A stretch of 64,000 bases of DNA from assembly GCF_025736935.1 (NCBI RefSeq), contig NZ_CP107048.1, positions 2,493,501 to 2,557,500 of the forward strand, in the 5' to 3' direction. Within the stretch, counting starts at the first letter, position 1. Every line of letters begins with the position of its first letter. The notes beneath the pieces were generated by a model. It saw nothing but the letters and a program-made list of their open reading frames with translations. It was not told the DNA's origin and searched no databases. This document shows positions 1,293 to 46,940 of the stretch, one piece after another. Source of the stretch: Qipengyuania sp. SS22 (GTDB taxonomy: Bacteria > Pseudomonadota > Alphaproteobacteria > Sphingomonadales > Sphingomonadaceae). The position numbers and the translations under genes are program-made.

Positions 1293-1822
1293 TGATGACA
1301 GCAATACGGTTCACGATTCTGGCAACCGCAGGTGCGCTGCTGGCAAGTACGGCGGGCGCACAGGATATGAGCGCGTTTCGCAGCGGTCCGATCTTCGAGG
1401 AGTTCGGTGCCCATGCGCCGGTTGAAGGCGTCGAAACCTTCGCCCCCGACACCGCATTCGCGATTGCCTTCGACGTCGCCGAACAGGCCGATGCGGGCAC
1501 GCGCAACCGCGGGTTCGAAAGCGCCGCGCGGTTCATCAACATGCATGCCTCGCACGCGGTCGATCCGGCGAACATGCGCATCGCGGTGGTCGTTCACGGC
1601 AAGGCAGTCCACGATCTGCTCGACGATGAGGCAGGCAACGGCTCGCACTACATGGTGACGCAGCTGCTCGACTACGGCGTGCGCTTCATCGCCTGCGGCC
1701 AGAGCGCGGCGGCGCATGGCGTGGCCAAGACGGACTTCATCCCCGGCGTCGAACTCGCGCTCTCCGCTATGACCGCGCATGCGCAATTGCAGCAGGCGGG
1801 CTACACGGTGAACCCGTTTTGA
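1289..1822 (+). CDS. Exported DsrE/DsrF-like family protein
   Basis: A 177-residue protein with an N-terminal signal peptide (cleavage probably after the AGA at about residue 24). The body has the DsrE-type alpha/beta fold pattern: a VHG-containing strand ([12 protein letters not shown]), a central [13 protein letters not shown] segment that carries the single conserved-position Cys, and a C-terminal [16 protein letters not shown] helix. Such periplasmic DsrE-like proteins occur near sulfur or redox genes, but the substrate is unknown. It starts inside the ruvA stop codon. Three consecutive ATG codons (1289, 1292, 1295) make the exact start ambiguous. An inverted repeat with a 6-bp stem (1811-1816/1825-1830) spans its stop codon. 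Confidence 0.75.
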
Positions 1823-1843
1823 GGCGGGTTTCCCCCCAGCCCC

Positions 1844-1869
1844 GTCATCCTGGACTCGTTTCAGGATCC
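1844..1869 (+). repeat. REP-like hairpin repeat, copy 1
   Basis: A 26-base element immediately downstream of the GIY-YIG gene. It folds with stem ATCCTG (1847-1852) and CAGGAT (1862-1867) around a 9-base loop. It matches 22 of 26 bases of the element at 2219-2244 read on the opposite strand. The GIY-YIG stop codon (1861-1863) lies within it. Confidence 0.8.
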
Positions 1870-2196
1870 ATCATGCGACCCGTGCGGAGCCAACGGATCG
1901 AAGCCCAAGCCCACCGCCAAATCGGCCCAGTGGGGATTGTCCCGCTCGATCAGATTGAGCTTCCATTGACGATGCCAGTTCTTCAGCTGCTTCTCACGCA
2001 AGATCGCCTGTTCCATATCGCCGAACATTTCGAAGCGGACGAGGCGATGGACCTTGTAGCGCGCCACGAACCCGCCGGTGATGCCCTCGCGGTGCTGCCA
2101 CAGACGTTTCGCGAGGTCGGATGTGACCCCGACATAGAGCGTTCCGCGCGGCTGGCTCGCGAGGATATAGACGCAGGGCTCACGGTCGATCGGCAT
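1861..2196 (-). CDS. GIY-YIG family small nuclease
   Basis: A 111-residue stand-alone GIY-YIG domain of the UPF0213/YhbQ-like type. The GIY strand appears as VYI (residues 9-11), the YIG strand as YVG (21-23), the catalytic Arg as R31 in AKRLWQH, and the metal-binding Glu as E68 in AILREKQLKNW. These are the residues expected for an active one-metal nuclease. The product starts MPIDREPC at 2196; an alternative ATG at 2241 would add residues read from the flanking repeat itself (MLNLFQHP). The stop codon lies in the other repeat. It is an antisense insertion between dsrE and ruvB. Family members are common in sphingomonads but their role is not established. Confidence 0.88.
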   Translation of the reverse strand: MPIDREPCVYILASQPRGTLYVGVTSDLAKRLWQHREGITGGFVARYKVHRLVRFEMFGDMEQAILREKQLKNWHRQWKLNLIERDNPHWADLAVGLGFDPLAPHGSHDGS

Positions 2197-2218
2197 GCTC
2201 CGGTGATTGCCGCGCGAT

Positions 2219-2244
2219 GGATGCTGAAACAAGTTCAGCATGAC
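2219..2244 (-). repeat. REP-like hairpin repeat, copy 2
   Basis: Inverted counterpart of the element at 1844-1869, located just upstream of the GIY-YIG start. On its own strand the stem is ATGCTG and CAGCAT. Compared with copy 1, the two stem changes are compensatory (C:G replaced by G:C), so pairing is preserved. That covariation argues that the hairpin itself is selected. Confidence 0.8.
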
Positions 2245-2258
2245 GGTATGGGGGTGGT

Positions 2259-3284
2259 GTGACCGAACCCGTTCCCCTCCATTCGCCCGAGCGGCAGGCC
2301 GAGGACCCCGACGCCGCGCTGCGTCCCAAGAGCCTGGCCGAGTTCGTCGGGCAACAGGCCGCGCGCGAGAATCTGCGTGTGTTCGTCGAGGCCGCCAAGG
2401 GCCGCGGTGAGGCGATGGACCATGTGCTGTTCTTCGGCCCGCCGGGGCTGGGCAAGACCACACTGGCGCAGATCGTCGCCAAGGAACTGGGCGTGGGCTT
2501 TCGCGCCACCAGCGGGCCGGTAATCGCCAAGGCGGGCGATCTGGCCGCGCTGCTGACCAATCTCGAACCGCATGACGTGTTGTTCATCGACGAGATCCAC
2601 CGGCTCAATCCGGTGGTCGAGGAAGTGCTCTATCCGGCGATGGAGGACCGCGCGCTCGACATCATCATCGGCGAGGGGCCGAGCGCGCGCAGTGTGCGGA
2701 TCGACCTGCCGCCGTTCACGCTGGTCGGCGCGACCACGCGGCAAGGGCTGCTGACCACGCCGCTGCGCGACCGTTTCGGCATCCCGGTGCGGCTGAACTT
2801 CTACACCGAGGACGAACTGCTCCGCGTGGTCACCCGCGGCGCCGGGCTGCTTGGTCTGGGGATCGACGAGGGCGGCGCGCGCGAGATCGCCCGCCGCAGC
2901 CGCGGGACGCCGCGCGTGGCGGGGCGGCTGATGCGCCGCGTGCGCGATTTCGCCAGCGTGCTGGGCGAAACGGTGGTGACGGCGACGGTTGCCGATGGTG
3001 CGCTCACCCGGCTCGAAGTCGACGGCCTCGGCCTCGACGCGATGGACCGGCGCTATCTCACCATGATCGCCACCACCTACAAGGGCGGACCGGTCGGGGT
3101 GGAGACGCTAGCGGCGGGTCTCAGCGAACCGCGCGACACGGTCGAGGAGGTGATCGAACCATATCTCATCCAGCTGGGCCTGATCGCGCGGACCGCGCGC
3201 GGGCGCTGTCTCAACGATGGCGGCTGGCTGCATCTGGGCCTTGCCCCGCCTTCCACACCGCAGGGAAGTATGTTCGACAAATAG
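2259..3284 (+). CDS. ruvB: Holliday junction helicase RuvB
   Basis: AAA+ motor of the RuvABC recombination system. The 341-residue product carries Walker A GPPGLGKT (residues 60-67), Walker B with DEIH (111-114), the sensor 1 segment LVGATTRQG and the winged-helix C-terminal domain with [17 protein letters not shown]. The start is GTG at 2259, directly after the repeat copy 2. Length matches the family. It sits downstream of ruvA but is separated from it by dsrE and the inverted GIY-YIG element, so it may need its own promoter or readthrough. Confidence 0.97.
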
Positions 3285-3501
3285 GGTTACCGGAGTGGTA
3301 GGAAAGCACCGCTAAACGGTCCCGAAACGGGACGGGGCTTGCGCAAAGCTCGCATTTCGGCGAAAAATTTACTTTTTAGGCGTACCGCGAAACGTAAAGA
3401 TTGGCACGTCCCCGAGGAAGGGATTCGCCGGAGTACATCCGGATCGTGGTAAGGGATAGAAAACAAACCCTTTTCCTCGGTCGCAACAGGAAGTCACACT
3501 T

Positions 3502-4416
3502 ATGTCGGTCAAGTCAGCTCTTGCCAAACTCTCGGCCACCGCGGCGGGTGGCGCGCTGCTTGCGGGCGGTGCGGTGCATGTCGCCGAGCGTCCGATCTCC
3601 GACAATCCGCAGTATAAGTCGAAATCGGTCAAATACGTCAAGAAGGCGACCCCGCGCGCCGTTCCCCGGCCGACCGTGCCGCGGGCGCGGACGATTCCGC
3701 GGCCGGTCGAATGCGTGCCCGCCGATTCGCCTGCAGCGGCCAACAGTCCGAACAATATCTGCCCGCCCGTCTATCGCCAGGCGATGGCGCCCGTTCCCGT
3801 CCCGCCGCTGCCCGCAGCCGCGCCGGTACGCGGTGGCGGCGCATCGCGCTCGATCGGCGGCAGCAGTTCCTCGGGCGGCGGCGGCTTCGGTGGCGGCGGC
3901 TTCTTCGGCGGCTTTTTCTCCGGATCGAGCGGCGGCGGCAGCGTGATCGTCAATTCGACCACCACCACCGGCGGCGACACGCCCGATGTGATCGTCGACG
4001 TCTCGACCACCACCTCGACTGGCGGCACCTCGACATCGACCTCGACCGGGTCGATCTCGACATCCACCGGTGAAGTCTCGACCTCTACGGGCGAAGTTTC
4101 GACCTCCACGGGCGAAGTGTCGACCTCTACCGGCAGCGTCTCGACCTCGACCGGTGAGGTCTCGACCTCGAGCGGCAACGTTACCACCAGCACGAGCAGT
4201 TCCTCCTCGACCAGCACGTCGAGTTCGAGTTCGACTTCGTCGTCCACCTCGACATCGAGCTCGACCTCGTCGTCGACCAGTTCGTCGACCAGCTCGTCGA
4301 CCTCGGGCAGCAGCAGCGGCACCGATGTGCCTGCACCGCCGATGATGGCGCTGTTCGGCTTTGCCGCCGCCGCGATCCTCGGGCGCCGCAAATTCCGTAT
4401 CAAACGCGCGGCCTGA
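3502..4416 (+). CDS. Exported Ser/Thr-repeat protein with PEP-CTERM-like tail
   Basis: A 304-residue protein in four parts: an N-terminal hydrophobic, Ala/Gly-rich leader (about 1-28); a basic Pro-rich section (about 50-110) with two Cys; a Gly/Ser-rich spacer; then a Ser/Thr tract made of repeated STSTGEV-type units grading into almost pure Ser/Thr. The end reads VPAPPMMALFGFAAAAILGRRKFR: a VPAP motif, a hydrophobic span and a basic tail. This is the architecture of PEP-CTERM sorting signals, although the canonical PEP is PAP here. It is probably an exported, glycosylated or surface-anchored protein. No enzymatic domain is seen. The function is unknown. Confidence 0.7.
   Translation: MSVKSALAKLSATAAGGALLAGGAVHVAERPISDNPQYKSKSVKYVKKATPRAVPRPTVPRARTIPRPVECVPADSPAAANSPNNICPPVYRQAMAPVPVPPLPAAAPVRGGGASRSIGGSSSSGGGGFGGGGFFGGFFSGSSGGGSVIVNSTTTTGGDTPDVIVDVSTTTSTGGTSTSTSTGSISTSTGEVSTSTGEVSTSTGEVSTSTGSVSTSTGEVSTSSGNVTTSTSSSSSTSTSSSSSTSSSTSTSSSTSSSTSSSTSSSTSGSSSGTDVPAPPMMALFGFAAAAILGRRKFRIKRAA
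4054..4185 (+). repeat. Degenerate 21-bp coding repeats (STSTGEV units)
   Basis: About six tandem units encoding variants of STSTGEV/STSTGSV within the Ser/Thr-repeat protein. Third-codon positions vary between units while the peptide is kept, so the repeat is maintained at the protein level. Downstream, a simpler Ser/Thr tract continues to about 4310. Confidence 0.8.
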
Positions 4417-25239: not shown

Positions 25240-25346
25240 ATCGAGAGCTTTCTTGTTCCTCCCGCGCAAACCAACGTGCACGGGGACTTGGCGGCGATGC
25301 TAGCGGTGAAGCGGGGGCGGGGCAAGGGCAGGCAGCGTGCGCGGGG

Positions 25347-25375
25347 TTGACCTCGCGCCCTGGCAAAACTAGATG
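25347..25375 (+). promoter_or_regulatory. Probable ancestral tRNA-Gln promoter
   Basis: TTGACC (25347-25352), 17 bases, TAGATG (25370-25375), 53 bases before the tRNA-Gln 5' fragment. It is now cut off from the intact tRNA and could drive the fragment and the RelA/SpoT gene. The rest of the 350-bp gap from 25240 to 25589 holds only this and the fragment. Confidence 0.5.
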
Positions 25376-25427
25376 CGCGGCCTCTGTTCCGGAGCGGCCC
25401 GCGATTCTCGCTCGCCCGGCCAGCTGA

Positions 25428-25451
25428 TGCCCCGTCGTCTAATGGTAAGAC
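25428..25451 (+). repeat. tRNA-Gln 5' fragment, left end of 24-bp direct repeat (attL-like)
   Basis: 24 bases identical to the first 24 bases of the intact tRNA-Gln at 26844: the 5' acceptor strand and the D-arm. After this the sequence diverges completely, so no tRNA can form. It is the left core repeat of the mini-island. A complementary GGGGC occurs at 25457-25461. Confidence 0.88.
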
Positions 25452-25521
25452 AGTGAGGGGCTCAAAAAAATCAGGCACTTACGAATTTAAGTATGCGCGA
25501 AATGCGGGGTGTTTTCCCTTA

Positions 25522-25533
25522 ATCGTCGCACCG
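25522..25533 (+). repeat. Arm-type repeat, left copy
   Basis: ATCGTCGCACCG, identical to 26761-26772 near the other end of the island. It lies 71 bp inside the left core repeat. Confidence 0.55.
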
Positions 25534-25589
25534 TACCCTAGCCAAATTTGTTGAGCTCGATTAGCGTTCTTTGCGGCTAGGAGCATAAG

Positions 25590-26618
25590 GTGGCGCAAGA
25601 CGGATTCCCCGGTGGGTCAAAGGGACGTGTCAATAAGGCAGGCAACGCTGTCAGAGATGAGGCCGCGACCGAAACCGACTATGATGTGATCGAAACCTGG
25701 CGCGCCGCGCATCGTCAGGTACTGAACACCTTTCAAGGCATTTTGCGCAATCGAACCAGAGGGTCTCATATTATTGTCGCGCAGCGGCACAAGCGCCGCA
25801 CTACGATCTTCGGGAAGCTCGAACGTTTTCCGGGAATGCAGCTTGCTCGAATGGACGATGTCGCGGGATGTAGATTGATCTTCAGAACCGCTGAAGAGTT
25901 ATATCAGTTCCGGAAAGAGCTTCATGATGCGCGTTTCCGCCATAAACTGAAGAATCAGCCCGACAAATACGACTATATAAAATCACCAAAAGATACGGGC
26001 TATCGTGGCGTTCACGACGTCTACTCTTATGACGTCAACTCGGTTAGCGGGAAGCCGCTCAAAGGGCTTTTAATCGAGCTTCAATATCGAACCATCTACC
26101 AGCATGCATGGGCCACTGCAGTCGAAGTGGTGGGCGCCATCACGGAAAGCCAACCCAAATTTCAACAAGGCGACGATCGCTACCAAGTCGTACTGGCCTA
26201 CGCTAGCGAGATAATCGCTCGGACCTTCGAAGATTCCAATTCCTGTTTTCCAGATTTGTCGAACACAGATCTCGTCCAAGTTTTTCTGGAGAAGGATGCG
26301 GAAATTGGCCTGATGCACATGTTGCGTGGTCTGAACTCTGCTCACGAGGAGGTAGATGAGAAAAAGAACGTCATCCTGATCTTCGATCCAGAAATTGAGG
26401 GTGACGATCGGCTGAGGAATATTACCTCTTTCCGCGATGCCACGGACGCGCTGCGAGAACTTTTTAGGTTGGAAGCCGAACACCCCGAACTTGATATCGT
26501 GCTTGTCCGTGCAGACACCTCTGGTGAAGTCCGGATCGCCTTCCAAAACTACTTTTCTGATGCTCGCGAGTTCATAAATCTCGTAGACCACGGTTGTGAC
26601 CGGCTGAGACAGACATAG
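25590..26618 (+). CDS. RelA/SpoT-domain protein (putative toxSAS-type alarmone/tRNA pyrophosphokinase)
   Basis: A 342-residue protein with a synthetase-type RelA/SpoT domain at about 45-185. Visible motifs: QRHKRRTTIFGKLERF (66-80), MDDVAGCRLIF (88-98), KYDYIKSPKDTGYRGVH (126-142), and LIELQYRTIYQHAWATAVE (161-179), including the conserved E-x-Q-x-R-T. No hydrolase (HD) domain is present. A C-terminal region of about 150 residues shows no known fold to me. Start is GTG, with AGGAG 6 bases upstream. Codon usage is clearly AT-richer than the neighbours, and the gene is alone between tRNA-derived repeats, indicating horizontal origin. QHAWATAVE occurs in toxin-like and CapRel-like members. Activity (ppGpp, ppApp or tRNA pyrophosphorylation) is not resolved. 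Confidence 0.82.
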   Translation: MAQDGFPGGSKGRVNKAGNAVRDEAATETDYDVIETWRAAHRQVLNTFQGILRNRTRGSHIIVAQRHKRRTTIFGKLERFPGMQLARMDDVAGCRLIFRTAEELYQFRKELHDARFRHKLKNQPDKYDYIKSPKDTGYRGVHDVYSYDVNSVSGKPLKGLLIELQYRTIYQHAWATAVEVVGAITESQPKFQQGDDRYQVVLAYASEIIARTFEDSNSCFPDLSNTDLVQVFLEKDAEIGLMHMLRGLNSAHEEVDEKKNVILIFDPEIEGDDRLRNITSFRDATDALRELFRLEAEHPELDIVLVRADTSGEVRIAFQNYFSDAREFINLVDHGCDRLRQT

Positions 26619-26751
26619 TGTGACGGGCTCGCGGGACCCGAAGCTGAGAGAGGTCTATTCCGCTCTCAAGTCCGAAAATGTGCGATCAGAAGACATTCAG
26701 CACTAAGCCCTTAAAAAATGAACGGCTGCCTGATTTCCCTGCGACGGGCCC

Positions 26752-26786
26752 GTGCGACGCATCGTCGCACCGAGCGTCGCACCGAG
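26752..26786 (+). repeat. Palindrome plus tandem arm-type repeats, right end of island
   Basis: GTGCGACG (26752-26759), CAT, then CGTCGCAC (26763-26770) is a perfect 8-bp palindrome. It overlaps two tandem copies of CGTCGCACCGAG (26763-26774 and 26775-26786). The first copy with two more 5' bases equals the left arm at 25522. Confidence 0.7.
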
Positions 26787-26803
26787 ATTCCCCAAGTAGG
26801 GCC

Positions 26804-26830
26804 TTGACCCGCCGAAAACCGCCGTTTAAG
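26804..26830 (+). promoter_or_regulatory. Possible substitute promoter for intact tRNA-Gln
   Basis: TTGACC (26804-26809), 15 bases, TTTAAG (26825-26830), just upstream of the restored tRNA and within the island. The spacing is short, so this is tentative. Confidence 0.35.
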
Positions 26831-26843
26831 CGCGCGCCTCCGT

Positions 26844-26917
26844 TGCCCCGTCGTCTAATGGTAAGACTGCGGACTCTGACTCCGTCAATTGAGGTTCGAA
26901 TCCTCACGGGGCATCCA
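26844..26917 (+). tRNA. tRNA-Gln (anticodon CUG)
   Basis: A complete 74-base tRNA gene including an encoded CCA (26915-26917). The acceptor TGCCCCG pairs with CGGGGCA. The D-arm contains TCTAATGGTAAGA, the anticodon loop reads CTCTGAC (anticodon CTG) and the T-arm contains GGTTCGAATCC. Its first 24 bases form the right copy of the direct repeat at 25428. Confidence 0.97.
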
Positions 26918-27007
26918 CTGCTTTTCCTCGCGACGCTTATGTTCTGCGTGCCACGTTCGAACGGCCCACGATATGAGCGATCGATCAGGTCACCTCCGGC
27001 TGCCCTG

Positions 27008-27259: not shown

Positions 27260-27528
27260 TTGCGTTTCCGGCCGGAGGTCATGGGGTCGGGCTTCGGCGG
27301 CGGCTTCCAGTCTGGCGGAGGGAGCGGGCGCTGCCGGCTCGAGCCGAGCCCCATGGCGCCCGAACGCTGGCGCACCAAACCCGACGTGTCGGCCTGCGCG
27401 GCGTCTGCAGCATCTGCTCCGCCTCGGATGAGGTTGATGCGGTCGCGAATTCGCCGGGCCTCCTCGAAATCGAGAGCGCTCGCCGCAGCTTCCATATCGC
27501 GCTGGAGATCATCAATGGTCTTGTCCAT
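27256..27528 (-). CDS. UvrB/UvrC-motif small protein
   Basis: A 90-residue protein with one UVR motif, IDDLQRDMEAAASALDFEEARRIRDRINLIRGG (given here in parts: residues 4-36), followed by a Pro-rich tail PPPDWKPPPKPDPM and a basic end. The motif mediates UvrB-UvrC-type helical pairing and occurs in small clients of Clp regulators. The frame is open to 27687, but the homologous relic and family start suggest MDKTIDD at 27528. It is coupled to the DUF3253 gene. Confidence 0.72.
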   Translation of the reverse strand: MDKTIDDLQRDMEAAASALDFEEARRIRDRINLIRGGADAADAAQADTSGLVRQRSGAMGLGSSRQRPLPPPDWKPPPKPDPMTSGRKRK

Positions 27529-46794: not shown

Positions 46795-46940
46795 ATCTCG
46801 CGTTCGGCAAGGGTCAGAACTGCTGTGTTTTCATCGACCCTCACTTGCGTTTCCCGCCGGACGTCATGAGGTCAGGCTTTGGCGGCGGCTTCCAGTCTGG
46901 CGGAGGAACCGGGCGCTACCGGCTCGAGTCGGCACCATCG
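46795..46940 (-). pseudogene. Relic of UVR-motif/DUF3253 gene pair
   Basis: About 85% identical to 27205-27350. On the minus strand it keeps, in frame, the last 26 codons of the UVR gene (Pro-rich tail PPPDWKPPPKPDLM and a basic end), the GTGA coupling, and the first 15 or so residues of DUF3253 (MRVDENTAVLTLAERE), then ends. It is truncated on both sides. Confidence 0.75.

Follow-up and report, generated by a model that had tools for sequence, protein, structure and literature searches.

By the window we mean the whole 64-kb stretch of DNA that was analysed here. Its sole tRNA gene is an intact tRNA-Gln(CUG) at 26844-26917 on the + strand (ARAGORN; Rfam RF00005), and ahead of this gene lies an islet of about 1.4 kb that is flanked by two copies of a 24-bp direct repeat. 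The left copy (25428-25451, +) is an isolated 5′ fragment of tRNA-Gln, located where the flank of relatives continues into an intact tRNA. The right copy (26844-26867, +; ARAGORN and repeat search) makes up the first 24 nt of the rebuilt gene, whose first part comes from the element. As originally predicted, the two copies are 100% identical, one of them a fragment and the other part of the intact tRNA; their starts are 1416 bp apart, and exact same-strand repeats of at least 24 bp occur at just two places in the window. GC content is 0.50-0.52 inside the islet vs. about 0.65 around it, and the islet holds one clear ORF and no PF00589 match, which bears out the earlier description of a single AT-richer gene with no accompanying integrase. 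A 26-bp exact direct repeat was also seen in the window (27296-27321 and 46881-46906, about 19.6 kb apart); it is the end of a longer match of 82% identity, and the + strand ORFs at its two copies have the peptide SGFGGGFQSGGG in common.

Just inside the two cores lies a set of short repeats built on the heptamer CGTCGCA. On the left, a single heptamer (25524-25530, +) within ATCGTCGCACCG (25522-25533) begins 96 bp from the core start. On the right, one heptamer (26740-26746, - strand, TGCGACG on the + strand) stands at offset -104 from the core, two more (offsets -91 and -81) form part of a 17-bp palindrome, TGCGACGCATCGTCGCA, at 26753-26769, and a tandem 12-bp repeat, CGTCGCACCGAG, fills 26763-26786 (+) with heptamers at -81 and -69. 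Both ATCGTCGCACCG, which recurs at 26761, and the doubled 12-bp repeat are where the original prediction had placed them. Counted on both strands, CGTCGCA is rarer in the window than expected (13 observed vs. 26 in shuffles), and five of these 13 heptamers fall within the 211 bp just inside the cores, where 0.03 would be expected from the rate elsewhere in the window. The palindrome is unique for its pattern in the window, with 0.01 expected.

The islet also separates the tRNA gene from what was probably its own promoter. By sequence reading, this is the TTGACC, 17-nt spacer and TAGATG at 25347-25375 (+), now left of the islet, and a promoter-like replacement that came with the element (TTGACC, 17 nt, TAAGCG; 26804-26832, +) was recognized by comparison with Erythrobacter mangrovi. 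A sigma-70 consensus scan of 25280-26960 scored zero promoters and zero terminators, so both promoters are read by comparison alone. The proposal of an original promoter at 25347 thus holds in that the TTGACC is there and is matched in E. mangrovi, and it fails to be scored by the consensus scan.

The empty site and a second element in Erythrobacter mangrovi

The left flank was searched in 60 genomes of the genus Erythrobacter and the junction was inspected in each of them. An intact tRNA-Gln directly after ppx/gppA, i.e., the empty site that had been predicted for related genomes, was found in 57 (28 of 30 and 29 of 30). The site is occupied in two, the window genome and E. mangrovi (G016), where the core is split off and repeated, and in the remaining genome (G037) the contig stops before the junction. 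Among the 57 empty genomes, G026 has a variant core and G052 (75% complete, 4% contamination) has a second intact copy on another contig. The nearest relatives of the window genome, G023 and G024 (95% identity over the 0.86-kb query and 93.6-94.0% over 3.5 kb), are both empty; close relatives do not all share the arrangement, and the simplest reading is that the insertion postdates the split from these two genomes. Identical cores, one of them in an intact tRNA, together with an empty site in relatives mark the islet as a tRNA-targeted, site-specific element. None of the five relatives compared matched the window 3′ of the tRNA, so the region downstream of the gene is variable too. In one of the empty genomes (G011, locus L169), ppx/gppA and tRNA-Gln are set apart by about 1.1 kb of extra DNA, located upstream at a place other than the 24-bp core.

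The E. mangrovi element is 1.8 kb long, with the identical 24-bp core occurring twice at a spacing of 1775 bp. Its right end corresponds to that of the window element (26670-26843, +) with 78% identity over 181 bp, i.e., 22% divergence, and CGTCGCA occurs exactly five times in each element, at the same offsets (+96 from the left core; -104, -91, -81, and -69 from the right core). This agreement supports the proposed anatomy of attachment cores plus arm sites. In E. mangrovi the tandem arm repeats read TGGAG for CCGAG in both copies, indicating that the tandem copies vary together. Both elements have a TTGACC 40 bp ahead of the right core (in E. mangrovi TTGACC, 17 nt, TATTGG), and the chromosomal TTGACC-17-TAGATG stands 81 bp ahead of the left core in E. 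mangrovi as well. The left flanks of the two sites are 80% identical, and the left ends of the elements are poorly conserved apart from the core and one heptamer. The GC contents of the two elements are 0.523 and 0.544. Their cargo genes are unrelated and in opposite orientation, so that the same repeat set does occur elsewhere with other cargo, as had been anticipated, and the pair has the same ends and different cargo that characterize a CIME-like (cis-mobilizable) element. A short conserved stretch, ATGTGCGATCA..., lies beyond the arm repeats at 26678-26740 and has a counterpart in E. mangrovi (L086); read by hand, it is a 42-aa peptide there and out of frame in the window.

The cargo genes and their relatives

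The single clear gene of the window islet (25590-26618, +; GTG start, AGGAG upstream) encodes a 342-aa protein with a RelA/SpoT domain (Pfam PF04607, E = 6.7e-13). It matches PADLOC PDC-S33 (E = 3.5e-99), where we take PDC to mean phage-defence candidate, and residues 10-333 match PHROG 4773. The best solved structures, PDB 7ztb and 9erv (E about 2.6e-23), are both titled "RelA/SpoT family protein," and 7ztb is presumably CapRel-SJ46. The protein of phage SJ46 itself is 27.7% identical over 93% of the length, and a profile comparison aligned it with residues 9-335 at 99.8% probability. These profile and structure matches point to a CapRel-like fused toxSAS toxin-antitoxin. As described for CapRel-SJ46, Y155 is the G-loop tyrosine and is required for protection, R79 and R116 coordinate ATP, and eight interface residues were tested (A77, R116, V338, L339, A341, A351, Y352, and Y355) (PMC9712102). 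The window protein aligns with it end to end, Y155 corresponding to Y138, and R79, R116, A77, V338, L339, A351, and Y355 are identical. In contrast, overall identity is about 27%, Y352 is replaced by Phe and A341 by Arg, and the protein has FXXY where CapRel-SJ46 has YXXY, so that six of the eight autoinhibition or interface residues considered in that paper are conserved. Y138 is invariant in all 43 sequences of an alignment that comprises the window protein, 35 of the 120 homologues listed (of 3196) and seven of 53 loci. With a synthetase domain carrying the G-loop tyrosine and homology from end to end, the gene is a probable anti-phage gene and a distant relative of CapRel-SJ46, itself a toxSAS toxin-antitoxin fusion by which phage is sensed. 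The reading of the cargo as a RelA/SpoT synthetase of toxSAS-like antiphage type with a C-terminal extension gains from the finding that its C-terminus aligns with the C-terminal region of CapRel, and judging from these similarities the protein would be toxic and would defend against phage. No paper was found on PDC-S33 by name or on genomic islands of E. mangrovi, and a literature search combining toxSAS, anti-phage and integron returned nothing but unrelated-looking work.

Relatives of the window cargo are widespread, with 3196 found in 5.8 billion proteins, 99 plasmid records, and 53 loci from many phyla. Besides the window genome, three of 397 genomes of the family encode one (40-47% identity), and no tRNA was found near these three. 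None of the 53 scanned loci has a tRNA-Gln, and two have another tRNA (Ser, Thr). An attC-like site occurs downstream of the gene at three of 51 loci (L035, L048, and L057; the 51 are the 53 loci less L073 and L085) vs. none of 299 control segments. A GTTRRRY half-site also lies upstream of the gene at these three loci, as it does at 12 of the 51 in all, a figure without a control. Long attC-like repeats flank the gene on both sides at L048 only, and partial integron-integrase-like sequence lies nearby at L056 and L040. At L036, closer inspection gave no support for an adjacent integron integrase. An integron integrase above cut-off was found in 18 of 47 genomes with such relatives (47 of the 53 were covered), a genome-wide count which disregards position relative to the gene and says little. 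Judging from these sites, integron cassettes are probably another vehicle of the RelA/SpoT cargo gene. For cassettes in integrons and CALINs, the recombinase can act in trans (PMC11389934). As single, promiscuous genes such cassettes resemble the present case, and some relatives of the window cargo were found by attC-like sites, L048 being the clearest. The window islet differs in having a tRNA core and arm repeats instead, with no attC-like site after the gene in 26616-26880.

The E. mangrovi cargo is a 303-aa protein that matches PHROG 4506 over residues 4-299 and no family of Pfam, NCBIfam, or PADLOC. It has 67 relatives (31 of which were used in an alignment), and those with an organism name are from sphingomonads. 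Four of the 397 family genomes encode relatives, with no tRNA in the stretches examined and no long flanking repeat; among the loci examined, no relative of either cargo lies in a comparable islet. A distant relative (25.5%) is present in 11 Escherichia phage records, mostly with lambda-like names among the eight listed, and in two E. coli records among the plasmids searched. In the lambdoid phage Lambda_ev203, the one phage examined in detail, this gene (3465-4364) immediately follows the repressor gene in the same orientation, the place that rexAB takes in lambda, and by this analogy of position it is possibly a superinfection-exclusion gene. Another relative, on an IMG/VR contig (L159), adjoins an IS1595-type transposase.

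Mobility and origin of the islet

No PF00589 match, or ORF of that kind, was found in or at either element, so neither has the tyrosine recombinase of an autonomous element. Genome-wide there are four such matches in the window genome and seven in E. mangrovi; within the 3.4-3.5 kb examined around them, heptamers are single and none are paired. This search covered recombinases of the tyrosine type (PF00589) only. Across the 60 genus genomes the right end matched its own kind only, besides short weak hits; these were rejected as further ends, being read as coding or chance, and no tRNA was found in the nine such loci tested with ARAGORN. Left-junction patterns matched only the window genome in the 397-genome family sample, which has 10 genus members and does not contain E. 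mangrovi, and the exact core required means that diverged copies could be missed. In IMG/VR, the palindrome pattern and the pattern of core plus left arm each gave zero matches. Other IMG/VR hits were rejected as attP or arm sites: six exact cores, each followed by a complete tRNA; five cores without the following tRNA-Gln sequence, all in the same other tRNA-like sequence; three tandem arms, repetitive or apparently coding; and one promoter-like stretch, inside a coding frame. Phage and plasmid records held no islet or right-end DNA beyond one 28-base match (E = 0.06). The distant integrase or helper with these arm repeats that had been suggested was thus found in neither genome, nor in the genus or the IMG/VR pattern scans, and the same holds for an autonomous relative with the same attachment and arm sites in the 60 genus genomes, the 397-genome sample, and the IMG/VR patterns, where diverged copies could escape. 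Packaging, capsid-hijack, or induction genes of its own, as in a phage satellite, are absent from the islet with its one clear gene.

One phage contig bears on the side of the tRNA gene that is used. IMGVR_UViG_3300020426_000284 (L117) has, in the stretch 1665-3371, a 454-aa integrase-like gene followed at a distance of 268 bp by an intact tRNA-Gln. The gene is a candidate for a 5′-side tRNA-Gln integrase, the sequence support being a SAM-like domain below its cut-off and nothing else. Its presence there suggests that this side of the tRNA gene may be a target for elements. Between gene and tRNA-Gln the contig has its own TTGCAT-type inverted repeats, unlike the arm repeats of the islet. No match to the integrase-like gene was found in the genus, in a search without positive control, and IMG/VR yielded no further relative of it.

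The islet is inserted at one 24-bp core that is empty in relatives, it has a sister element with matching ends and other cargo, and the tRNA is rebuilt behind a new upstream region. We consider it fairly likely that it is a non-autonomous, integrase-less, CIME-like mini-element that entered the 5′ part of tRNA-Gln(CUG) site-specifically, and we infer mobilization in trans by a helper integrase. The five CGTCGCA heptamers would then be putative arm sites for a tyrosine recombinase, supplied by a helper, either a phage or an integrative element, that is lacking in both sequenced genomes. The element would render its insertion harmless by replacing both the promoter and the first part of the tRNA, and the host may benefit from the cargo. 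The window protein may be held closed by its own C-terminal region until a phage protein opens it, and the opened form would block translation by modifying tRNA ends.

Alternatively, each of the two elements could be an independent relic of a larger prophage or integrative element at this site, now immobile and with all but the ends and one accessory gene deleted. Such decay would fit the absence of a helper or integrase at either element, the occupation of just two of 60 genomes, and the phage relatives of both cargo families, and the L117 gene makes larger elements on this side of tRNA-Gln plausible. However, both elements are similarly tiny and have complete ends, the five heptamers keep identical offsets although the right end is 22% diverged, no integrase remnant is recognizable, and the closest relatives are empty rather than occupied by a larger form. 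We favour a true mini-element over decay, which we regard as rather unlikely, since both elements, tiny as they are, have retained complete ends and every heptamer despite drift elsewhere. A still poorer account is the exchange of cargo by ordinary homologous recombination between conserved flanks, with the arm repeats incidental. The right ends do resemble each other beyond the core, with 78% identity over about 180 bp, but at the left end little besides the core and one heptamer is conserved, and a base-exact insertion point in the tRNA of two distant species (left flanks 80% identical), with relatives otherwise empty, makes this exchange improbable. Simple tandem duplication of tRNA-Gln followed by decay of one copy would place a tRNA fragment and an intact tRNA in tandem, but it is hardly credible given that only the 24 bp are common to the surroundings of the two cores, that a GC-poor gene lies between them, that relatives have one copy here, and that a second element has the same ends.

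The mini-element that we favour has counterparts among known systems. CIMEs, like other integrase-less islands mobilized in trans, are bounded by attachment sites, have no recombinase of their own, and carry cargo only, and the islet resembles them in all of these respects. Unlike CIMEs, it is only 1.4-1.8 kb long, no parent ICE or phage was found for it, and it lies in the 5′ part of the tRNA gene, to which it supplies a new upstream region and the tRNA front. The tmRNA islands I23, I44, and I55 carry phage-defence cargo and are described as being moved by a jumbo phage (PMC12595487). Like the islet, they insert site-specifically at an RNA gene and are marked by direct repeats, defence cargo that varies, and a lack of transfer genes (PMC12595487). 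In contrast, they encode their own integrase, IntY, have a common region of about 18 kb, and sit just downstream of tmRNA (PMC12595487). Tentatively, the two elements might be the first representatives of one-cargo "tRNA cassettes" as a class, each with a minimal but complete passport that would consist of the core, the set of five arm sites, and a spare front end for the tRNA. In that event a helper's integrase would move any antiphage gene placed between such ends, much as attC does for integron cassettes.

If the element moves, a minimal tRNA-targeted mobile element would consist of a few hundred bases of ends and one gene, and single antiphage genes would have a route by which to spread without a recombinase of their own. 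The element predicts a helper integrase that can be found, and the common ends offer a search key for further antiphage genes. The fused toxSAS family is hereby placed in phages, plasmids, integron-like cassettes, and a tRNA islet.
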